DNA of 64,000 nucleotides from Amphirosellinia nigrospora (taxonomy: Eukaryota; Ascomycota; Sordariomycetes; Xylariales; Xylariaceae), in the NCBI GenBank assembly GCA_004123355.1, contig SCHM01000002.1, positions 10,451,569 through 10,515,568 on the forward strand. Direction: 5' to 3'. The position numbers and the translations under genes were made by a program. Shown here one piece after another: positions 17,801-38,433 of the stretch (position 1 is the stretch's first letter; every line of letters starts with the position of its first letter). The notes under the pieces are model-generated. The model saw nothing but the letters and a program-made list of their open reading frames with translations, was not told the DNA's origin and made no database searches.

Positions 17801-20800
17801 TCGCTTTTCGCCAAGACCGCGGTCCTGTCTGTCGGGACGAGAAACTAAAACTCCGATAGAGAAAGAAAAGGAGTCGGGACCGTCTAACAAGGTAGTAGGT
17901 AGTTAGTAAATCGTTACCAAGCATCGCCGTGATCTCTCGCGCATTGCCGACGGAGATATATTGTTTAAATTGCTGACGTTTGGGAAACCGGGATCCCCGC
18001 TGTTTAAAATAGAATGTCACACCTAACTATCTTGTCCAAGACACCACAAAGGGCCTGCCCGCCGTGATTCTTCGGAGGGCTCATCCCGGCCCGCCGGCGC
18101 AAACGCGCGCAGGCATCACGCCTGTTGCGCTGGGCCTCGCCCGGAGACACGCCACGATCGTATGACGGCCTGTCATCCCCGGACGGACGGTGAAATGAAT
18201 CGCTGCCTCCCAATCGGAAAACGACCAGACTGTGTGTGTTTTCTGGGGTTGGAAACGCTGGATCGGTTTCGTTTTAGTCTCGGCCGAAGAAAACTGGGTG
18301 AAATGTTTATTCTGTACTACATCCTTGAGTAATATCAGTATTCTGGCATCTTGACTTATGGCGTCGTCGCGGGGGTTGTCCTTGGAGGCTTTAATGTGAA
18401 CTCTACCAATGAAATGCATCTTCAGAGCAGCCTATCACGACTTGCCTTCGAGTGCCGTAAGCAAATGCAGTCATGCATGGTTGTATCTTCACATTAGATA
18501 ATAGCGCTTCTTTCTGTTAGTGAGAGGAGACGTTGTATTGGTTATCATGACACAGCTGTGTTTCCCTGTGTAGAACTTCCTGTGATATAGGGACTATTGT
18601 ACATTCAAACAATGTGATAGAACATACGTAACCTAGGTTTGTGTCTCGCAATCTGCAACTTCTCCTATATTTCTAGTCTTATGTGTGTGTGTTTGATCTA
18701 TCTATCCCTTGCCTACACGGGGTATGGAAAACATGGCATAGTTAAAGGGGGCAATTTGACTTTAGAAGTGCGTCGACTGCTTTGATAGTGTTTTTATTGT
18801 GTCGTGTAACTAAGTACTTAGGTAGGTAATAAAATATAACGACTTAACTGTCTTCCAAGAAAACGTAACAGCAGCTTCGAAACGGAAAATCGCACTTCGT
18901 CAAGCGCTTCATTTCGAGAGCATATAATACTCCGAGGCACGACAATGCAAAGTAAGCTTTGCCAATTAGCTTAAGACTGCTGCTCGTCGAATTTCTATCA
19001 CAATGCATGTAACACGTTATTGGCGTAAGCGTTTCTGTAAGTATAAAACTAAACTTGAAAGTAAGCACAGCAGGATGCAGGATATGTTCTCTTTTCACCA
19101 CCGAAATAACATCATCTCGTGACTTTTATCATATCGTCGTGTGGAGCGGGGGGTCATAACACCTTACGTATCATCGCCTTACGCAGGTACGTGCTCGCTT
19201 AAGCCCAATAACATCATAGCGCAAGTCACGCACTTGGCTTAGACCATACAATCATGAATAATACAACTACTTTCAGGCCACCGATATTGATGAGATGCAC
19301 GAGGCATGGAATAAGCATCGTGGTAGTGACTAACACATTCCTAACCCTTACCCTCTCCATGGAATACCTACACCGCCAATTCCTCGTAGATGGCATGTCT
19401 ATCCGGAAATTTACTAGATGTATTTACGTTTGCTACCATTAAAGAATACTCTGAGGGAAATACAAGCTTGCCACGTGCCGAGAACAATTCACCACCAATA
19501 CTTCCAGCGTGCCAAGGAACCCACTGTGATAATGTAGCATTGGATTGGACCTCATCCACTTGGGACGTCGGTAGATAATCAATAATGCTATTTTCTAGCT
19601 TCGGAGAGCCAGCTGAAAGTATTCGGACATGAGAAGCCAAAACCAACGATGAATAAAGTAGATGCCTCGTCCGGGCTATATCATGGGTGTATACTTGTGG
19701 TAACGAGACCGTTCTATAGGACCTGAATAAGAAATAACCCGTAGATGATGTCCTCCTGCTAACGAGACATGTGTCACGATGCCGTCTCCCCAGCTCCTCT
19801 GGGGCAAAGGAGTGCGTATGTAGCTGGGGATAGGAGACTGGCCTACGGCACAAAGGATTTTAGACCCTTTGCATAACAACAAGTATCGTAGAACACCCGT
19901 ATACGAAGATCCTGACAACATGAAAATTGGATGCAGCCCTTGAAAAGACATAAAACTAAAAGGACTTGATGAATATTCACTTATATGGATGCACGACTAT
20001 AAATGATGCCATGGAGCTGTGAAAGGGACAAGAACGTTCTACATATAAACTGACCTAGTTTACGAAGGTGTATCGGATGTGACAACACGTGCTCAAGACA
20101 TACTAGTATTAGTAGTTGATATAATTCCACGATCAAGTTCCCTCATTACTGCCCGGACAGGATTGGCACCTGCTCAGGAAAGGACAATATCCATTAATCC
20201 AGATCAAAGGCGGGCGGCCTACATCAACCTCGCAGCCTGGTATGCGTCCCATGTAAAACAGTTATCTTAAAGCGACTGAGGCAGTCAACTCGATATCCAC
20301 CTAGGCGAGTGCTACACTCGGTGACCCCCGACCAACTCAGTCGCGCGAAGTGTTGTTGAGTAGTATTGTCAATGAAGGAGTCGTCTTCGGTTCTGCTATA
20401 CTCGGTAGCAGTCATGGAGGTTACATTAGCTTCACGTCGCAGCAAATAGAAACGCAGATGGACAGAGAGAGCTTGATAGAACTTTAATTCAACGGTGATG
20501 AATCTAATATACACCCCGAAAGTTTGCTGTTGTGCGAAAGGCTCTAAAACGCGGTTATAGGTCATAGGCCTAAACATTTCTCTATTGCGCAGTCTCAAGT
20601 CTCATAACCGGGACCTGGACGTCGAAGGCTTTTTCTTATATCCAAAGAAAATGTATAAATAAATGACATAACAAGATAATTATAGAAGTTGGTGAGTAGT
20701 AAGGCAAGCCCCTTTTAAGAGGTAGTATGGTAAAGTATACTTCAACTCCCAAGGTAACAGCGGCCGCATCCGAGTTTTGGCGTAGCTGGGCTCCTTTCGC

Positions 20801-21693
20801 CCTCGTATTCGGTCGTCTTATGAAATAAAGTTCTGCGCCTCAGCTCGTCTCAACGACCGGTTTGCGGTGTTCTCGTCCGGGGCTGTTCTCGTGAACAAGG
20901 CGGGTATAGCCGTTCTCGGGCCAGCTTGGGATCTTGTCTCAGTCCTTGCAGGAAGCGTTATCGAGTGCTAAGTGCTCTACGATATTGGGGATAGGGTCGG
21001 CAGGCGTCTGACTATGGTGTCAGAGATTCTTAGACATCGCAAAGTTCAAACACATAAGGGTATGAGCACATTGGTTTGTGTTTGCTCACGATCCTGGCAA
21101 CCTTGGCGAGAGGGGATTGTTTTTAATGCCTCTATTGTTCGGATTTCAGCTAGAATTGATAAGACACAAGTATATTCCTCCTATACTACCGGTAAGCAGG
21201 TGTCAAATACTTGCCATTTCCCCTGAGTGATATGTTCTTCTATTCCCAGGTGGATGGAGTATGAATCTATGTTCTTGACAAGTTCGACGAGATGTCGACC
21301 TAACCTAGACTCTTCATCTCCCCCTCCTACTCAACGAATTACGGATAATGAATGTTTAGCAACGGTCAAGTAGGCTAGAAATCCTGGACTTCTTCCAAAA
21401 TCCAAATGTATCGATGTTAAATCTACTACATACGATAAGCCATTGCTAACGATATCCATTTTTTTTTAAAATAAATATCTCTCTTATACGAGGTCGCCTA
21501 AAACAGGGCACATATGCCGTTCAAAGACAACAGAAGATCAAGACGAATCGGACGAGTGATTGTGATCGGTAAACAATAACCCCTTGTCCTGCTTATGTCA
21601 TAACACCAGAGTCGAAATACCTACTAACTTACATGAAGAACTACCCGGCATTTCGGGAGCCAGCAGGAGTAACGAGAGTAGAATATACCCGTT

Positions 21694-21710
21694 GAGACAC
21701 TTCGTGTCTC
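21694..21710. repeat. 7-bp inverted repeat with TTC loop
   Basis: GAGACAC and GTGTCTC flank TTC. It is a small stable hairpin in DNA without a nearby supported gene; the role is unknown. Confidence 0.5.
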
Positions 21711-22259
21711 CGACACATGTCAAAGAGAGGAACGAAGAACATCACGAGGCAACGACATGACTGTTAGAATAATACTCAAAGCCGATAAACAGCCGCTACG
21801 GATAATCCGGGGCCCCTCGCACAGGTCAGCAACTCTTTTAAAAGAGATAGCTGATTAAATGAGTACCCTAATATAAGATCCCTATGCTATGTCAATCTTG
21901 TGTATACACACAAATTATTCCAGCAAGTCATAAATAACAATAGACAAGGACCATAATGGTAGTAGGGTGTCTGATCCTGTCGACCTGAAGAGCACGAGCT
22001 CGAGTCTTAGTGAAGGGACGTCGGTACATCGCAACGATCGCGCATGACCTACGGGGAAGGAAGCTGAATTGCAGTTACCAATAAGGTTCATTGATATCTC
22101 ATCTCTCATCAGCAGCAGCCTTCTTCAGCTATATTTATATCGAAACCCGTTATATAGATAGGAGCATAAGCATTTAAGATACTCTCGAGCAGTAACACTC
22201 CCGCGTAGCTAGGATTCAGCACAGCCGTAAGACGTGAAAATAGATAAGGTCAGCCCTCT

Positions 22260-22720
22260 CACCCCCAGACTTCCGGTTCGAAAGTTCTCAACATACTCAT
22301 TCAGGAACTCCCTCTGAGTATCGTTCGCAGCGTATTTCGAGGCCTTGTTCAAATTATCGCACATGCGCACCAAGTCAGCGGCATGATCGCCCTCGACTAG
22401 ATGAACCTCTACTAAGGCGTCGAGTGCGTCGAGCGGCCGCGCCACCTCGGTTGATTCTATCGAGGCTTAGTATACTTATAGAAGTCAATCAATGCTGGTT
22501 ATACCTCTTGCGATGGACTTACATAGTAGTTCCCAACGTTAGACAGGAAGGTAGCTGCGTACTGGAGAAACGTAGACACATCGTCTTCACTGACACTCTC
22601 CCATTTAGCAAGCCGCTGCCAGTCCCCGTCACAGAACTCTCGGAGCCGCATAATGAAGCCGAAAATTGCCAGCGATCTCCAACCGATATATCTGGGCTTG
22701 TGCCGCCATTTTGGTCGCTT
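22260..22720 (-). pseudogene. Dipeptidyl peptidase III relic, N-terminal part
   Basis: Reading leftward on the minus strand, pieces match the N-terminal half of DPP III (peptidase family M49, a zinc exopeptidase that removes dipeptides). One exon reads IFGFIMRLREFCDGDW and then LQYAATFLSNVGNYY, ending at 22523 with a clean GTAAGT donor. After an intron remnant the next piece reads GDHAADLVRMCDNLNKASKY and ANDTQREFLNEYVENFRTG. The stretch that normally links these two pieces is missing, and the frame also shifts upstream near 22690. The homology stops abruptly at about 22260-22266, after FRTGSL. The continuation of the protein is found 6.8 kb away on the other strand at 29025. Intron remnants argue against a retrocopy. 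It cannot encode a working enzyme. Confidence 0.85.
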
Positions 22721-23845
22721 TAACCCCCCGCACTGTCCTCAATATATAGTGTGGAGTTGTGCTATTCGACGTGATGCATTAAATGGTCAGACAGGCCTTG
22801 AAGATGAAGGCGAGGCTCCCGTTGTTGCTCAGGCGGGGGTTTGAATGATGGTGTGGAGGGTTACAGCATGTTGGTTGAATTGTGTGGCGCTCAGTCAGTT
22901 GCACTGCATGCTGTTAAGATGATAGGTAGAAAAGGCGGCAATCTTCTCATCGAAGTTCGGTGCCTCTTGAGTTGTTCGTGGGATTTAAATATATTGTCGA
23001 CCATGTGGCCTGTCAGTGGCTTCCACAGAGACGAGATGTACCGATTGGCGACGGCCAACACATGAAGACGAATAACTAGGCGTCTAGTTTTGACCCCAGC
23101 TCCTTTAATACCTAAAGAGTATTATCGGATGTCGTCGCGCGATGAGAGGTACATATGTGGGTATATGGCTACTATCGTGGTTTGAAGATATGATAGACTG
23201 GTATATAATGTATAAGCAAGTTGCTTAAAGGTTTAGATATTCTTATATTTCCCTTTGGTAAGTGTAGGTGCCCTAACACATCGTCTTTGTAGTATTCATG
23301 ATGTCGACGCTCTTTGCCCGAACGGTTGAAGCTATAATATCAATAATTGGGCATATTGGCACTGAGCCCCAACACTCTAAGGTCCGTAGGCGATAAACTT
23401 ATGCCGAAATATCAAGGCGATATTATGTATCGAGCAAAAAATAGTCATGGGATCATATCATACGTTTATAAAAGGGATCAACAGGCAACACAAGAAAACA
23501 AATCACATATCGTTAGAAGTGGACAAAAAGAGGATCGAATCGAAATAGTGGTATTGATCTAAACAAGTGGTCGTATGGCCCATACAGGCTTTTGTGGAAT
23601 GAATCTCATTCAATCCCGGGGCGATTACATCTTGGCCACCCTAGGGTATCGTCAATGCAAACATTAGAATTTGGCTCATAAACTCAGAACTTCGTCCACC
23701 ATATCCTCATCTAGAACGCATGGTTCAGCATAGAGGACTTACTCCTTCGCAGGAACAGCGACTATAGCATACCGAGTTAGCTCATGTCAAGATAATATTC
23801 AGTTTGTTCTAGAATCAGGCACACGTTCTCGGGCCGGGAGCCAAC
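22721..23845. other. Intergenic between DPP III relic and GPx gene
   Basis: No protein family was recognised in this stretch. If it once held the first exon and promoter of the DPP III gene, these are no longer recognisable. Confidence 0.45.
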
Positions 23846-24677
23846 TCAGGCAGGAAACGTCTGGGTTTGGTAGGGTAAAAAGGGTATAGGGGGTTGGGAT
23901 TGCTTACTCTGCTCCTTGATGGGCTTCTCAAGAGCCTCGGGCTTGGTGGTGGAAGCCCAGCGACCCTTGACCTTGCCGTCACGGCCGATGAGGAACTTCT
24001 CGAAATTCCACTTGACACGCTTGATGCCCAAGACACCAGCCTGCTCGTTCTTCAACCAGTTCCAGACGGGCTCCGGCTTGTCACCGTTGACCTCAACCTT
24101 GCCCAAGATGGGGAAGGTGACGCCGTAGTTGACCTGGCAGAACTCCTGGATCTCATCGATGCTGCCGGGGTCCTGGCTCGCAAACTGGTTGCAGGGGAAA
24201 CCGAGGATGACGAAATCGTCGGGGTTGGAGGCAGTGATGTCCTTGTACCTGTTTAACGAGGTTAGAATAAAAGTAAGGAGAGAATACTGGATAAAATATA
24301 TTTGTGCAAGTATGAACGGTTGCCCGCGAGAGATATTCTCGTTACACAGACGTGTCATGGCACATTGGGATGTAAAATCGAGGGCGAGGGCGAGAACTGT
24401 GATAAGGGACTTTAGGGGTTTACTTACAGCTTCTCGAGGCCAGCGAACTGGGGAGTGAAGCCGCACTTGGAGGCTGTGTTGACGACGAGGACGACCTTGC
24501 CCTTGTATTCGGACAGAGGCTTGTCAGCGCCGGTCTCTGTTCGACGGGAAAGGACGGGTTAGCGAACGGTGTCGAGTTTTTGCCTCAGCTCTCTACTGTG
24601 GCGGCATCAGGAGCTATCAGGAGCTGTTACTTACTGTCCTTGGGGGTGAAATCCCAGAAAGAGGTAGCGGAAGCCAT
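23846..24677 (-). CDS. Glutathione peroxidase family thiol peroxidase
   Basis: Cysteine-type GPx (yeast Hyr1/Gpx3-like) that reduces hydroperoxides, probably using thioredoxin. Exons: 24677-24635 (starts [14 protein letters not shown]), 24536-24428 and 24248 leftward; the introns have GTAAGT donors. The three family signatures are present: [12 protein letters not shown] with the peroxidatic Cys in place of selenocysteine; [14 protein letters not shown]; and [16 protein letters not shown] with the active-site Trp-Asn. A second Cys in [13 protein letters not shown] fits the resolving Cys. The length fits the family. The C-terminus is uncertain: the frame reads on to a stop at 23846, but a GTAAGC donor at 23907 could lead to a short last exon. 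The gene lies inside the inferred inverted block yet its frame is intact. Confidence 0.9.
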
Positions 24678-26852
24678 TGTGACTATGGATCTTGATGATG
24701 TTGCGATAAAAGCGGTGGAAGGTGTAGAGGATGGAGAAATCGGCCAGGGCGCGAAGGTTGCAGTCCGTGTCTTAATATAGGTGGGGTTGCGATGAGCGGT
24801 GGACGAAGATGATGGGCGGTGGGAGCTCTGACTTTGGTAGTGTTGAGCAAAAGGTGATCTTTTCCTCAATGACAAAAATAGTCAGCAGGGGTCCACGAGT
24901 CGTGCAGATAGTGCACGCTACCAAGATGGCCTCGGGAGGTAGTGGAGGTACTTGAATTAAACAGTCCAGGTACCTGCAGCATACCTACGACATACCTACA
25001 GCTGCATAGTACCCTGTAGCGCCTATCGTGGTATCTTAATAGGTGGGCTGGGGGGTTGGAGGGGTGGAAGCAGCAGCATTAAAAGGACATGCTTATACAG
25101 GGGACACAGAGGATACAGGGGGTAGGTAGGAGTACCAATAACGGAGGACGGAGGCTGTGTACAGCTTCTCATCCGTCGCGCAACGCCAGTCCAAAAGACC
25201 ATGGTCATAGTGTAGCGATGGTGGGATGTCAGAAACAGTAAAAAAAAGAAATGATAACGGCGGGTAGGGCGTTCTGTAGGGTTGGGTTTGCCTTGTTTCA
25301 TGGACAGTCGACCATGGATTTCTATTTCCTTCGTCTGTTGGCGCTGGGAACCCACCGAGCAACCAAGGACGATTCGAAGCTAAGCTGCACCCTTTGACAA
25401 ATCACCTCAGAAGGCGTCGAGATGAGCTCTGCCGAAGGGATGACGATTGGCGCGAACCTCCGATATTAGTCACCGCCGTGTCAATCTGTCAGTCAATCAA
25501 TCAATCAATTTGTCTGACTATAGTACCCTCGATGGTTGGCCGACCACTTATCACGCAAAAATACGGTAAATTTCCGATCCGAGGCTCATATAACGGGCTG
25601 TTATGAAACACATCTGGGATTAGAGGGAGCTGCCACCTATAAGGTATGTATATAGAGCTTTGGACGTAACAAAAATTGGAGCATTGTACCGCTGTGAAGT
25701 ATGGAGCATGACATGCATATAGTAACACATATAGATGTACTTAGATACATCCGAGTCAGTAAGCAGAAAATCAAAACAGACGAATAGGTATGGATGCTTG
25801 TGAGCAAGCTCAACTGGCTTGGAGATACATATCTACTTGGTATCTCCGATCGAGACGGGCATCACCAATAGTTAGCACGCTACCTGAGGCACAATTGACG
25901 CGACTACACCCCATGCTACCGTAACATCCATCCTAACTCGAATTAAATCCAACCTCGCAACTTTTGCACATAAGTAGGTATGTGCACATAGACGCACAGC
26001 ACACGAAGGAAGAAAGGAGGGCAGGTCCCCACCCTTGGCGTAGTAGGTAGTGTAGCTATAAGTAGTTGATGATGACAGGAAGTCGATGCTGGATGGAGAT
26101 AAGGATTAGGGAGGCAGACTTGTGGGAGTAATACGAAGAGGTTACACAATTGCACGTAAAAACTTTTGCAAGTTCTTGTCTCTAAGTTGGGTACTTTACC
26201 ATTCCCCAAAATCTTTTGTTAAAATTTTTTCAACGTTAGGTATATGCAGTGCACTTCCAAGTTTCAAATTCATGGTTCCTGCATGAGCATTAGCACGTTC
26301 GGTAGGTGAAGCACCTGCATTGTATGTACATCAGTGCCCCTCAACCCCTCGGTTATCAGTACCTTTCTACTACTACTAGGTACATCCCTTGGGCCCCTCA
26401 GATGTGCCTTCTTAACAGAGGTATCGAGGTATCTTGGTGATCCAATGTCCAATGCCCAACAACCTTGGAACCTAGGTACCTAGCGACCAGCCAATTGATA
26501 TTGTTTTAGCCATATTTGTTTATCGGTCAAAGGTGATCCGCATCCCGACTGTTCTCTTAATGTAATTCAGCATGTTATTACTTGTAGGCTTAATCCGACG
26601 CTATCCCAGCCCCCCGGGCCGTTTGCTGATCAGCCCACCCTTCATTGATTGGCTCTTCCGGATCGCCACCGATTCACCGATTCCGCAGCTCCGGCGCAAG
26701 GGTTCAACCGTCCTGTCCTGCCGGGGCACCTCAAGTATACCTCAACAGACTAGATAGCACCATACTCTAGCGTCCAGCGTCCAGCATCCGACATCTAGCA
26801 TCGGCCGTCTCACTCTCTCCAGCCTCGACCGATCGGCCATGTCAACGAGGCG
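24678..26852. other. Intergenic between GPx and FAD oxidoreductase
   Basis: Divergent upstream region of about 2.2 kb serving the minus-strand GPx gene and the plus-strand oxidoreductase. No coding region was recognised. GGTA/TACC-type tetranucleotides are common. Short AT-rich segments occur near 26160-26240. Confidence 0.5.
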
Positions 26853-28384
26853 ATGGACAGCCGAATGCCCCGACCGCGACATATCGTGATCATAGGTACG
26901 TACCCCCCAGCGAGTTTCCAGCCACTACCACCCTACAGCGCCCGCCTGCTTTGCGCGTCACCTTCATTACCCTCGAGCTAATTAGAATCCCGCTGCGCAG
27001 GGGGCGGTATAATCGGTACGACCACGGCTTACTATTTAACCCGCCATCCATCCTTCAATCCCTTAATCCACCACATTACGCTCCTCGAGGCCACGTCCAT
27101 CGCCGCTGGTGCCTCGGGCAAGCCGGAGGACTACTCGGTCTCTGGGCATATCCTACATGCATAGTCCCCCTGTCGTACCGCCTGCATGCCGAGTTGGCAG
27201 CTGAACACGATGGTGCTACTAAATGGGGATATCGCCGTCTGGAGTGCGGTCAGATTGCCGCCACCGTAAGGGGGAAAGGTTCCAGGGCTAAGGCGAAATC
27301 TAGGCGGAGGAAATCCACGGCGAGTAAAGCAAAGCGGGCGAATCTGCGGAAAAGCATGTCGACGCCCCAGCAGGACGGACAAGAAAATATTCCTGGAAGT
27401 TGTACAATGGCACGGCAACTCCTCCGCCCGACGTCCAACATTTACCGCAGTTTCAAGACCAAGCCCAAGCGCAAAACGAGGGAAGGACTGGCAGAAGCTG
27501 CCAAAGCAAGATGAGGCTGCGACAACACTAATGTGCCAATCAATACTCCCGGCAGATCTAGATTGGATCGATAGCGAGCTCGTAGAGGAGTATGCCGAAA
27601 TGGGATTAGAAGGGTATACCGAGACGGCGCAGGTACACCCCTATCAGTTCACGACATCCATGGCAGATCTAGCACACTCGGCCGGCGTAGATATCAAGCT
27701 TAATGCGAAGGTGACAAAAATAGGCCTGAGTCGTGGTAGTGTCAAAACAGTCGAGTTCCTTGACCGAGTAACACAGTCAACGCGCACGATTCTTGGAGTG
27801 ACGGATGTCGTGGTTGCAGCAGGTCCCTGGACGAGTAGTTTGCTGCCCCAGACCAAAGTAGAAGGCCTGCGTGCCCACAGCGTTGTCTTTGAGGCAGATG
27901 TGACGCCTTATGCCGTATTCACCAACATCTCGCTGCCAGGAAACTGGATACCATCACATCGGCGGCACCGAGTGCACAATGGGCACGTAGACCCGGAGAT
28001 CTATGCGCGACCGGGCGAGGTCTATGCTTGCGGGAATGTGACCCTTCTGTCCCGCTGCCTGAGACAGCAGACTTGGTCGAAGTCGACGAAGCACAGTGCG
28101 ATGACATGGTTGCCTATATCAGCACCGTAAGTACAATCCTCAAAGCCGCACCTGTCACAGCGAAACAAGCTTGCTACATGCCGCGACACATGCGCCCCGG
28201 GCAGGAGAGCACCCCTCTCGTCGGCGGGACGGCCGTCGAGGGACTCTGGGTCTCGGCAGGTCACACGTGCTGGGGTATCCAGAATGGACCGGCTAGTGGG
28301 AAGCTGATCAGCGAATTTATTTTCGAAGGTGCTGCAACGAGCGCTGATGCCACCGAGCTCGACCCTAGGCAGTTCGGGATATAA
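26853..28384 (+). CDS. FAD-dependent oxidoreductase (DAO family), frame-shifted
   Basis: Resembles fungal FAD-dependent oxidoreductases of the D-amino-acid oxidase fold (yeast Tda3-like). Exon 1 is 26853-26895 (MDSRMPRPRHIVIIG); the intron 26896-27000 splits the dinucleotide-binding motif, and exon 2 continues GGIIG. Further motifs are TLLEATSIAAGASGK, GGLLGLWAYP, LDWIDSELVEEYAEMGL, AQVHPYQFTTSMADLA, VVAAGPWTSSLLP and, near the end, GLWVSAGHTCWGIQNGPASG. The frame breaks near 27115 (GASGK to GGLLG), between about 27250 and 27490 in a Lys/Arg-rich linker, and near 28030. The pieces lie in order with all main motifs, so the gene may be intact in the organism and broken here by missing single bases, or it may be decaying. 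Nothing indicates its substrate. It lies inside the inferred inverted block. Confidence 0.75.
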
Positions 28385-29024
28385 ACTTTAGGATAAGGAA
28401 GTCATGATAGTAATAATAACTGGGTGTATATGAAATCCATCATAACATTATCTTCTAACCCCACTCGTTATGAAGTATTTGTGAACGTTAGCCTCCTACT
28501 AAATGCAGATGATTCGACTACTTAACTATAGTCTAGGTCTGTCTTTGATTTATTATAACCCAAGAAACAGTGGACTATCTAGGGAAGTATCCCAATATAT
28601 CAAACCTAGGCGACGTTCTATGCCTTATTAAGCATGCGCCAACGAAAACATTGTGAATGTCCCCCGCCAATGGCTAAAACCAGTCCTTGGAACTGTGCTG
28701 CCTTCGGAATTGGTGTTGTGTCTGTTGTAGCACTAGGGCCTCGACACTGTACACGCTTCTTATCTCCCGGCGGCACTTTGTGCATTGTTCTTAAGGTAGG
28801 TCAACATGCCCTCGTATGTTACTTATAGGGTTTGACAGAGAGAGCATTTTTCGTCATAATGACCACTCTATATAAGTCAGGATTCTCTATTACGAAAATA
28901 GCGTCCTCTTCCTCATAATCTTCAGCCCCCGCGCGTAATATAATTTAAAACTATGGCACCTCATCACGCACTGCGGCATCCGTCTCAGCCCAAGCTATCC
29001 ACGATCAGCACCTAAATACTTCCA
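28385..29024. other. Intergenic up to the inversion breakpoint
   Basis: No coding region was recognised. The stretch ends at the right breakpoint, where DPP III homology begins abruptly at about 29025. Confidence 0.45.
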
Positions 29025-29983
29025 GGGTGTCTATCGTGACTCTCAGAGAGCCTGGGTCACTGATAAGGCCCCGAAAGTTGTGAATAGGTATCTTAGCGTT
29101 CGTGAAGCTACACAGAGATCCATACGGAGTACGATGAGAATTCGAGAGACTCGTGGCTATTGCGGATGCTGAAGAAACTGCGTTGCTATCGACATTGGTT
29201 AAGCATTCGGACAAGCTCATTCGACGGCTGCTCTGGGCGTCAGGGGAAAACAATGGCATAGGGCCGTTCGAGAAATTGCTTTTCGAGCCACCCGACTTCT
29301 CGAGCATTCATGGTAAGTTTCTACTTCATCGACCAACTACTGGCTTATCACAGGACTGGCAAGGAAAGCGCTTGCTTATTGATCAAGCATCATTTCCCCA
29401 GGGATTAATCTCCCAAACGTAGGCCAACTTGACCTCCCCCCAAACTCCTGTGGCTAACACTTTAGTAGTATAACGGCATTCATCAGGGTGTCAGTTTCAA
29501 GAATGTGATTATCATCAATCGTATGTAGCAGAAAGTACCGCAATGCAATGGCTTTATCCCTGCGGAAGAAATGGAGGCATTCCAGAAGCATAAGTATCCC
29601 GAATATTATTAGTGAATAGTTCTCCGTGGATTTCTTGAGCATGTGTCCAGATTCTACATGACAGGACTAACAAGAAACTCACCGTATATATTGACCGGTC
29701 AAAGACAGTGAATCATGGCAAGAAAAGGTTGGGCGAGATGCTACTGAGACTTCATATATACCGCTTTATAGCCGGCGTGCGAGCTTGTCGGTAATACTAC
29801 GCAGACCTATCTTACGTAGACGATGAAAGGCTTCAGTGGAGGGAGAGGGTCCTTGCCAATAAGCTACCCTCTCCGTTGAATGTGCAGGCTAATACATTCG
29901 TGGAGGGGAACTCCATCATTCCTAAGGTATATGAACCGACATATGTCGGGATTATTGAGAGCTGGTGTGAACTTGCAGTATGA
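29025..29983 (+). pseudogene. Dipeptidyl peptidase III relic, C-terminal part
   Basis: On the plus strand this continues the protein left off at 22260. It reads GVYRDSQRAWVTDKAPKVVN, then LVAIADAEETALLSTLVKHS, GENNGIGPFEKLLFEPPDFS, PGINLPN, FKNVIIINRM, IPAEEMEAFQKHKYPEYY and, after a gap, VYIDRSKTVNHGKKRLGEML, LRLHIYRFIAGVRACR and VQANTFVEGN, ending GIIESWCELAV with a stop at 29981-29983. At least two intron remnants with GTAAGT- or GTAGG-type donors sit at expected kinds of places. In-frame stops interrupt it several times (for example after INRM and after ACR). The central section that carries the zinc-binding HELLGH motif is deleted near 29640-29660. It is a true relic, not a one-base error. 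Confidence 0.9.
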
Positions 29984-30116
29984 GTAAGAGATCCGTGGGA
30001 TAATGAGTCATAAGCTCGTTACATATCGACAAAGAGAACGCTTCGAAGTTTGCCAGACTTTAATAGGCTTACTTCATCCTTAAGGTTCCTAGTATACAGG
30101 TTTTGAGGTGTCTGGT

Positions 30117-31596
30117 TTAGACCAGCTTCCAGACTCCGTCCGTTATCTCAATCTTGATCTCCCTGTTTTCGTCTATATCCTCCTTCCGGCTTCGAGAATA
30201 GCCGTGGTGGCAATTGTGTTATTCAAAGTGGGCAGCCCTCGTGCATCCAAGTCAGAAGGCTTGAGAGATCCGTTATTGACCGCTTGGCAGCCGTCAACAA
30301 ACTTCTCGAATGATACGTAGCCATATCCGCTTTGGCCATTGAAGTTACCCTCCTCATCAGGAGCGCTGTGATAGCAGAGTCAGCAATAATTGCCTCGAAT
30401 AGATCTATAATAGCATGCCAAACTCGACCAAAACCGGTACGGATAATAATGGAAATCACTTACTACTTCATGTAGAACGGGTTATACCACATTAGCTGTC
30501 CAGCGGTATCATCTGCAACGTCGTACCCCCGCTTTGCTTGATTAATGCGGACCTCGCCGCCGGCAGCCATGTAATGGAAGTATTGGTTCGAGTGAACACC
30601 CGCTTTCTGCGGCGCCGTCCAAGAAGCCGTGTAGACGCCCGTGGCGATCTTGCTCGGATCGCTCTTCTTCTGCCACGTGACCAGCACCGTGATGGTGTCC
30701 TCGGTGGCGTCGACGCAGCCCAGGCTCGTCGCGATGCCCTTGGCTGCCGAGGCGGATACCTTTACGGGGACGAACCCCTGTCCGGAGACCATCGAGTCAC
30801 AGATATCCACGTGGTGGCTGTTCAGGTAATAGGAGATGTCCGAGTCAATCCCGGCCCAGGCCTTGAACGTCTCGAGCTGCGACTTGGGCTGCGACATGTA
30901 GCTGTAGAAGTAGTTGAAGTCGCCGAGCTTCTGGGCCTTGTACTTCGCGTCCGCGTACGCTGGGTCGAATCGCTTATGATGTTCGATATACACGTAAACG
31001 CCGCTCTTCTTGGCGGCGTCTATGAGCGACTGATGGTGCTCTAGAGTCTTGACGGCCGGCTTGGTGATCATGACGTGAATTTTGCGTTCAATAGCGTACA
31101 GGGCGATGGGATAGTGAGTCGTGTCCGGGGTGAATATGGTGATAGCATCACCCGGCTTCAAGGCATCTATGGCGGTCTTGTAGGAATCTGGGTCCTTGGC
31201 GTCGTTGGCTGGGTATGACTCGAAGGACGTATCGAGACCATTGTAGATTTTGGTGATGTTTGTTTCCAAATGTTGTCCTTTGGACACAAAGCATTAGCTG
31301 CGTATGACACATTAAGGGGCCCTACGGGTACGTGATTTATACTGACTTATCGCTGGGAATTTGGTTCCATTGGTACCGACCATACTCAGCTGCCCGACCT
31401 TCCCTCTCCTTCGGAGGTCAAACAGGTCAAACCTACCACTCCGACCTTCTTGTCAGAGCCCGAAGCGCCGCCGCCTACGAACCCGGTGGTGTACTCGCCG
31501 GTACCGACCTGTCACCATGTTAATTAATGGGTAGATTAAAATCACCTGAGCCATGATAGAAATTACCATTAGCACATTGAGAGGTCCAGGCGCCAT
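30117..31596 (-). CDS. Gfo/Idh/MocA family NAD(P)-dependent oxidoreductase
   Basis: Predicted sugar or polyol dehydrogenase-like enzyme of about 418 residues. Exons: 31596-31567, 31508-31347, 31277-30464 and 30365-30117. The start MAPGPLNVLM joins VGTGEYTTGFVGGGASG, a Rossmann nucleotide-binding loop. The middle has HVMITKPAVKTLEHH (the family's Lys-Pro site), YIEHHKRFDPAY and YLNSHHVDICDSM. The last exon reads YAPDEEGNFNGQSGYGYVSF and RGLPTLNNTIATTAILEAG. Two one-base shifts are needed, near 31415 and near 30180; both look like missing bases because the family motif continues at once in the next frame. It is transcribed away from the DapA-like gene at 33370, which suggests a shared substrate pathway; the substrate itself is not readable from sequence. 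Confidence 0.85.
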
Positions 31597-33369: not shown

Positions 33370-34346
33370 ATGGCTGCAGTTGACGGCAATGGTCACGGGC
33401 CCGCAAGGCGACCCTTGCCTTGTGGTATATATGCACCAACGATGACTTTCTTTGATCCAGAGACTGAAGAGCTCGACATTCCGGTCATCAAGAAGCATGC
33501 AGAACGTCTTGCACGAGACGGCCTAGCTGGCTTAGTGACCCTCGGCTCCAACGGAGAAGCCGTTCACTGTACGCGCGAGGAGAAGCTGGCTGTAACCCGA
33601 GCCACGAGAGAAGCACTGGATGCTGCAGGCTTTGTGGACATGCCCATCATAGTGGGAGCAACCGAAAGCAGCGTCAAGGGAACCGTCGAATTAATCAAAT
33701 TAGCTGCGGAGGCTGGTGGTGACTATGTGTTGCTTCTTCCACCTAGCTATTATAAAGCCCAGGTTGACGAAGAGATGATCGAAGGCTACTTCACCGCTGT
33801 GGCAGACGCAAGTCCCTGCCCATCGTTCTATATAACTACCCCGGCGCCGTAGCAGGCGTCGACATGGACTCGGATCTACTCATCAAACTCGGCCAACACC
33901 CAAACATCATTGGAACCAAGTTCACATGCGGTAGCACAGGCAAGCTCACACGTGTCGCCTCAGCTTTAGATGCAAAGACGCCCTCTTCAGAAGGCAGCGG
34001 CTACATGGCCTTTGGTGGTATATGTGATTTCACCGTACAAACACTGGCCTCGGGCGGAAGCGGCATCATCGCCGGCGGCGCCAACGTCATGCCGAAAGTA
34101 TGTGTGAAGGTCTGGAACCTGTACGCCGAGGGGAAGATCGACGAGGCCATCAAGCTGCAGAAGGTCCTCTCTCGGGGGGACTGGTTCCTGACCAAGCCAG
34201 CCATCGCGGGCACCAAGCAGGCGATCCAGAGCTACTTCGGCTACGGCGGATTCCCGCGCCGGCCCCTGAAGCGCCTGGACGAGGCCAAGGTCGCAGCCGT
34301 CGCTGAGGGAATCCGAGAAGTTATGGAGATCGAGAAGTCCCTGTGA
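33370..34346 (+). CDS. DapA-family class I aldolase
   Basis: Predicted lyase of the dihydrodipicolinate synthase / N-acetylneuraminate lyase fold, about 325 residues, without introns. In fungi such enzymes include 4-hydroxy-2-oxoglutarate-type and L-threo-3-deoxyhexulosonate aldolases; the exact substrate is not readable. Motifs in order are GIYAPTMTFFDPETEELD, LVTLGSNGEAVHCTREEK, IIVGATESSVKGTVELI, YVLLLPPSYYK, IVLYNYPGAVAGVD (the catalytic Tyr) and IIGTKFTCGSTGKL (the Schiff-base Lys). The start MAAVDGNGHG is chosen over an upstream in-frame ATG at 33331 because family proteins begin near here. One base appears missing near 33822 between SPCP and IVLYNYPG; the frame resumes immediately. It is divergent from the oxidoreductase at 31596. 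Confidence 0.85.
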
Positions 34347-37743: not shown

Positions 37744-38433
37744 CTAGTTGGCCTGTTGACTGTCGCTGGCCGACTGTGTCGATGAGGCCTGCTCAGCATT
37801 CCTGGCACCAAGCACGTTCTCGCCAACGAACCTCTTAGCGGACGCTTGGGCGAAGAGCGATTTTGGCTTGGCCCTGTAGCAAAGGGAAAATCAAACGCGT
37901 TAGCTAAATGTATCTGACAAAAGAATGGGCAGGGGGGAAGGGGGAACCATAGCAAGTAAATAAATAAAGGGTAGGGTGGTAAAAACTTACTTTCCGGCAT
38001 GTCGGCTCTTGAGAGCGTTGAGCTTGGCGGTGCAGGGACTCATGATGTTGTCCGATGGAGAGACGTACTTCTGTGTGGAACTACAGGCGCCAGAGGCGTT
38101 GGGGTCAGCAGGGAGTCCGGCGAGGGTCTTTCTGTACATCATCATCATCGGGGAATAGGAGGACGCCAGCAGCAGCGAGGGCTGCTGCTGCACGACGGTC
38201 GTGGTATCGAGGCCAGAGCCAGTGGATGCGCCAACGCCAGGGTTGATGGATGTGGTGGTGGTGATGGTGGTGGTGGTGGTGTGGTGGTCGTACTTCTCTT
38301 CCTCCATCTTGTTTTGAAAAACCTGGCGGTGGTACTCCATGCTCTTGATGTCGGCCTTGTTGGCTCCGGCTCCGGCTTGGTTCTTGAGGCTGTTGTTGGC
38401 GTCCTTCTCGGACAGAGCGGTGACGGGACCCAT
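37744..38433 (-). CDS. Spo12-like mitotic-exit regulator
   Basis: Small nuclear regulator of the Spo12 family, which in yeast helps release Cdc14 at mitotic exit and acts in meiosis. Two exons: 38433-37991 and 37873-37744, with GTAAGT donor and TACAG acceptor; 190 residues, frame intact. It contains SMEYHRQVFQNKMEEEK and the family signature KYVSPSDNIMSPCTAKLNAL split from KPKSLFA by the intron. Between them lies a Thr-rich and Gln-rich low-complexity part encoded by a GGT/GAT microsatellite on the plus strand. Start MGPVTALSEKD was chosen because the upstream in-frame extension is Thr-rich and not conserved-looking. It is convergent with the DRG2 gene, leaving about 490 bases between the two stops. 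Confidence 0.85.

Follow-up and report, generated by a model that had tools for sequence, protein, structure and literature searches.

A divergent dipeptidyl peptidase III relic in two opposite-strand pieces in Amphirosellinia nigrospora, probably separated by a local inversion

Introduction

Dipeptidyl peptidase III (DPP III) is mostly a single-copy gene in fungi. The enzyme belongs to family M49 (PF03571; yeast structure 3csk), for whose conserved regions we follow the list given in PMC5667867. As to rearrangements, PMC3516569 describes frequent intrachromosomal inversions in Dothideomycetes (mesosynteny) and, for closely related members of this class, notes that simple repeats lie within 500 bp of breakpoints.

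Here, we analyze a window of 64,000 nucleotides (C4:10451569-10515568) from the 48.1 Mb genome of A. nigrospora, which consists of 11 contigs. The fungal origin of the DNA is evident from families including Fungal_trans_2, Zn_clus, Pet127, and Cut12. The window contains a divergent DPP III (M49) gene present as two pieces on opposite strands. These pieces are homologous to the family and keep degenerate versions of conserved regions 1 and 2, but the relic differs from it in lacking the HExxGH and EExRAE zinc-binding regions and in having its halves on opposite strands. Like the small inversions of filamentous ascomycetes treated in PMC3516569, the rearrangement proposed here is local and would alter gene order and orientation within the chromosome. 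Unlike the breakpoints of Dothideomycetes described there, neither break has a tandem array near it (Tandem Repeats Finder, score of at least 50), the first array being at 38244. Among the paper titles listed in a literature search, none dealt with the locus or with an inversion that disrupts a fungal DPP III family. The locus adds one case to an already known type of event.

Results

DPP III Loci and the Two Pieces

A search of the genome with the M49 profile gave 18 matches, which fall into at least six loci (Table 1). Among the paralogs, the HExxGH string lies within one frame in L009, L010, and L012 and across a frame break in L011; it reads HDLLGH in L013, which is also relic-like. The window and the paralogs have no common neighbors: 374 window frames of at least 60 aa, compared with 23 stretches, which reach ~30 kb on each side of L009, L011, and L012 and span ~10 kb for L010 and L013, matched only in the DPP III pieces. 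This argues against segmental duplication, which we therefore rejected as the source of the ancestral order within the stretches compared.

Table 1. Features of the DPP III relic, of the DNA between its two pieces, and positions of the DPP III loci
Feature	Position	Strand	Evidence and remarks
Piece A, whole	22266..22693	-	N-terminal exon and second part
Piece A, N-terminal exon	22520..22693 (open frame 22502-22738)	-	43% identity over 58 aa to L011, E 2.7e-13
Piece A, internal gap	22434..22519	-	86 nt left where L011 has ~120 more residues
Piece A, second part, ending FRTGSL	22266..22433 (open frame 22212-22466)	-	41% over 56 aa to L011, E 4.5e-13; Pfam M49 E 9.5e-12
Left junction of the putative inversion	22265..22266		Piece A homology stops at 22266; nothing further in 21900-22262
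Putatively inverted block	22266..29025 (6,760 bp)		Deduced from the two junctions
MFS sugar-transporter relic	23264..23489 (226 bp)	+	72% DNA identity to C1:4112742-4112953
Glutathione peroxidase gene	23846..24677	-	Pfam GSHPx E 1.7e-20; 184 aa model with two introns; 3' end provisional
FAD-dependent oxidoreductase (DAO) gene	26853..28384	+	Pfam DAO E 1.2e-13 and 4.1e-07; frame breaks; start placed by eye
Right junction of the putative inversion	29025..29026		Piece B homology from 29026 (G codon, in register) or 29032 (first tblastn-aligned residue)
Piece B, whole	29026..29971	+	Five stretches match L011, one of them at E 0.02 only
Piece B, first part, degenerate conserved region 1 (HRDPYGVR, then TGA)	29026..29305	+	56% over 16 aa, 56% over 18 aa, and 46% over 52 aa to L011; Pfam M49 E 1.4e-09
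Piece B, conserved region 2 (GINLPN by eye, and YNGIHQGVSFKNVIIINRM)	29398..29594	+	Weak: 47% over 19 aa to L011 (E 0.02), 35% over 43 aa to L009 (E 0.045)
Piece B, internal gap	29595..29671	+	77 nt left; HExxGH and EECRAE regions without counterpart
Piece B, C-terminal part, one internal TAA	29672..29971	+	40% over 90 aa to L011, E 4.5e-17; Pfam M49 E 4e-12 for 29795-29980
DPP III locus L009	C6:808k		
DPP III locus L010	C1:13557k		
DPP III locus L011	C8:1071k		
DPP III locus L012	C1:2479k		
DPP III locus L013	C1:1094k		
DPP III locus of the window			This table

Within the window, PF03571 (Peptidase_M49) matches 22266-22478 on the minus strand (E 5e-10) and 29096-29311 (1.5e-13) and 29642-29971 (1.8e-23) on the plus strand, and three of the four window frames submitted to Pfam exceed the cut-off of this profile. 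These matches and the alignments with the paralogs confirm the first-pass annotation in its description of two DPP III pieces on opposite strands 6.8 kb apart. The start that it gave for the right piece, near 29025, also stands, whereas the left piece ends at 22266, its last homologous base, and not at 22260. That annotation left out the N-terminal exon of piece A, as well as the large internal gaps of both pieces. Pfam recognizes no family in the frame of this exon or in its counterpart in L011; the exon is assigned by its likeness to L011, L012, and L010.

The nearest paralog by score is L011 for both pieces, at ~40% identity. Its lead is clear for piece A and for the C-terminal part of piece B. 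It is slight for the first part of B, where L011 scores 49.7 bits against 47.4 for L009 in one comparison and 58 against 57 in another. DNA searches of the genome gave no second copy of the pieces.

The Break Point

Piece A reads ...NEYVENFRTGSL up to its last homologous base, and piece B starts with GVYRDSQRAWVTDKAPKVV. If the end of A (FRTGSL) is put together with the start of B (GVYRDSQRAW), nine residues separate the L of GSL from the W, and nine residues are also found at the corresponding place in L009, L010, L011, and L012, as well as in the human and yeast chains. The break corresponds to a position between residues 299 and 300 of yeast chain 3csk_A. Hence, the opposite-strand pieces are complementary and meet at one point, as expected from an inversion.

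Overlap between the pieces was assessed by taking paralog sequence from beyond the break and scoring it against 200 base-shuffled DNAs. Past the end of piece A, shuffles scored as high in 189 (L009), 176 (L011), 165 (L010), and 181 (L012) cases out of 200; ahead of piece B, the corresponding numbers were 7, 36, 192, and 83. The low value of L009 ahead of B was reproduced neither by the nearest paralog L011 nor by the other two. In all eight controls, with segments on the pieces' own sides, none of the 200 shuffles scored as high. There is no convincing overlap of the pieces at the break.

The longest string common to the surroundings of both breaks is GGGTG, from which a microhomology-mediated event had been proposed. 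This string is at chance level, since, out of 2000 random pairs, 10.7% share as much over 8 nt on each side, 17.7% over 10, 39.4% over 15, and 60.1% over 20. Furthermore, when the breaks are aligned by reading frame, the two GGGTG strings are shifted by 2 nt relative to each other and only GGG is common (by eye), so the proposal is not supported. A repeat-mediated inversion was likewise rejected: none of the seven inverted pairs of at least 14 nt in 21000-30600 joins the breaks, the nearest lying 473 and 655 nt away.

Missing Segments and Frame Breaks

Large parts of the gene are missing. For piece A, the L011_mid1 segment and residues 1-52 of L011_mid2 have no significant match anywhere in the window. 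For piece B, the same is true of the L009 and L011 parts that carry the zinc motif HExxGH (region 3), of those that carry the second zinc motif EExR(K)AE(D) (region 4), and of the stretch of both paralogs between this second motif and the C-terminal part, in which region 5 may lie. Regions 1 and 2 are kept in piece B in degenerate form and with stops (HRDPYGVR...EFERLVAI and GINLPN...FKNVIIIN). The in-frame stops of piece B are the TGA of region 1 and the TAA of the C-terminal part, and two TAA were counted at the upstream end of the profile match of piece A. Single in-frame stops could in principle also be base errors.

Frame breaks were set aside as evidence of decay, because such breaks are also found in conserved genes of this assembly. 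This is the case for the HSP70 genes (on C5, C7, and C8), in which matches continue in another frame without room for an intron. Ten frame breaks were inspected, five in HSP70, two each in L009 and L011, and one in a window gene of the DHDPS family at ~33.8 kb (33768-33852); counted by eye, a run of at least three G or C occurs at seven of these ten, and at three of the five in HSP70. The assembly probably contains many small base errors. Frame breaks in this genome are thus poor evidence and should not be taken for signs of pseudogenes, and the case for a relic rests on the large missing segments.

Repeat-induced point mutation was considered as a cause of the decay and rejected, as it left no clear sign: TpA/ApT is 0.90 in piece A and 0.82 in piece B against 0.84 in the window, and (CpA+TpG)/(ApC+GpT) is 1.04 and 1.22, respectively, against 1.15.

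Genes between the Breaks

A single glutathione peroxidase gene was found in the genome, and it lies in the block between the pieces; the two PF00255 matches of the whole genome correspond to two of its exons. There are 54 splice models with the family motifs, those listed having 184 or 186 residues, and the conserved part reads through in them. The earlier description of this gene as frame-intact is thus borne out. The frames of the DAO gene cover profile positions 115-234 and 265-352 of 353, reaching the profile end. The transporter relic has a fuller copy on C1, where an upstream frame belongs to Pfam MFS_2; Pfam gives no hit for the frame that matches the relic.

Discussion

The pieces are best explained as the remains of one divergent DPP III (M49) paralog, apparently a worn-out spare copy. 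A single inversion of about 22266-29025 is the simplest explanation of their position, order, and strand, and, as read from this one genome, we consider it very probable. The local inversion of the first-pass annotation, with a break inside the DPP III gene, thereby stands as the simplest fit, because the ends meet in register and because strand and order agree with one flip. It is also supported by the lack of convincing overlap at the break, by L011 being the best paralog for both pieces, and by the failure of the DNA searches to give a second copy of them. Of the two breaks, one would lie within DPP III and the second in DNA without a recognized gene. The inversion, of ~6.76 kb, would have turned the 5' half of DPP III together with the transporter relic, the glutathione peroxidase gene, and the FAD oxidoreductase gene. 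The loss of ~120 residues in the 5' half and of the zinc-binding core in the 3' half would be separate events, and in-frame stops would have arisen.

Some observations count against one inversion. With at least six DPP III loci in the genome, two broken copies are conceivable, and there is a weak match to L009 ahead of piece B. Moreover, at the second ancestral junction, which would unite the left flank with the right end of the block, no recognized gene confirms the flip. A second gene split at this junction was sought by submitting two left-flank frames and five frames of 26771-28387 to Pfam, and this candidate was rejected, since only the DAO frames matched. The segment 28384-29025, compared with the genome as DNA, gave no match of its own.

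Among the alternatives, a history of several steps, in which piece A was relocated and turned round while the stretch from glutathione peroxidase to DAO arrived separately, is unlikely. The surroundings contain fragments of other genes and a repeat, so several changes have taken place in this region. Nevertheless, such a history needs more breaks than one inversion, and neither piece A nor the block has a duplicate in the DNA searches, the match of the transporter relic excepted.

Two separate DPP III copies in inverted arrangement, each of which lost the complementary half, would also produce opposite-strand pieces, and the several loci of the genome, with L013 as another relic-like one, make this conceivable, as does the L009 value ahead of B. 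Yet, from two separate copies one would expect an overlap or a gap between the pieces, and the ends meet to the residue with neither. By a rough estimate for a gene of ~700 residues, two independent ends would come within one residue of each other in about 3 of 700 cases. Because the same paralog also scores best for both pieces, we regard two copies as very unlikely.

It is similarly improbable that the block was placed in the wrong orientation during assembly. The intron-less frame breaks of conserved genes do suggest a poor base quality. However, misoriented blocks tend to sit between inverted repeats, and no inverted pair of at least 14 nt in the stretch searched around the block has its arms at both breaks. 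Besides, the missing parts and the in-frame stops make the gene a relic in either orientation.

Returning to the single inversion, its role in the death of the gene is a separate matter. On the sequence at hand, the relic cannot encode a DPP III enzyme, and it is dead on more counts than the inversion, since regions 3 and 4 are gone, ~120 residues are lost in piece A, and there are in-frame stops. The gene may have been dead beforehand. That the inversion destroyed it is unproven, given the losses in both pieces and given that one genome gives no order of events; what the sequence shows is a gene relic of an ordinary sort, and not the destruction of a living gene by a flip. It is most improbable that the inversion inactivated a then-working DPP III paralog and was kept for the new regulatory neighborhood that it gave to glutathione peroxidase, with the loss of DPP III as a side effect.

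The locus looks like a pocket of relics around one alive-looking gene, and the event is an ordinary micro-inversion inside such a relic-rich pocket. Placed to the residue within a coding sequence, the break offers a clean marker for dating one small inversion, and its junction, being traceable in sister species, could tell whether the inversion or the deletions came first. Beyond its use as a marker, this is an ordinary case of a dispensable paralog decaying in a rearranged pocket.

On the left flank, 102 bp at 21142-21243 match C1:3075072-3075168 (75%), with no gene recognized. Nearby, at 20767-21021 on the plus strand, lies the relic of a gene for a CrcB-like membrane protein, presumably a fluoride exporter, with 67% DNA identity to C1:7146682-7146939. 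Farther out, at 19770-19917, lies an interspersed repeat of ~148 bp, which the genome matches at 18 other places with 70-86% identity.
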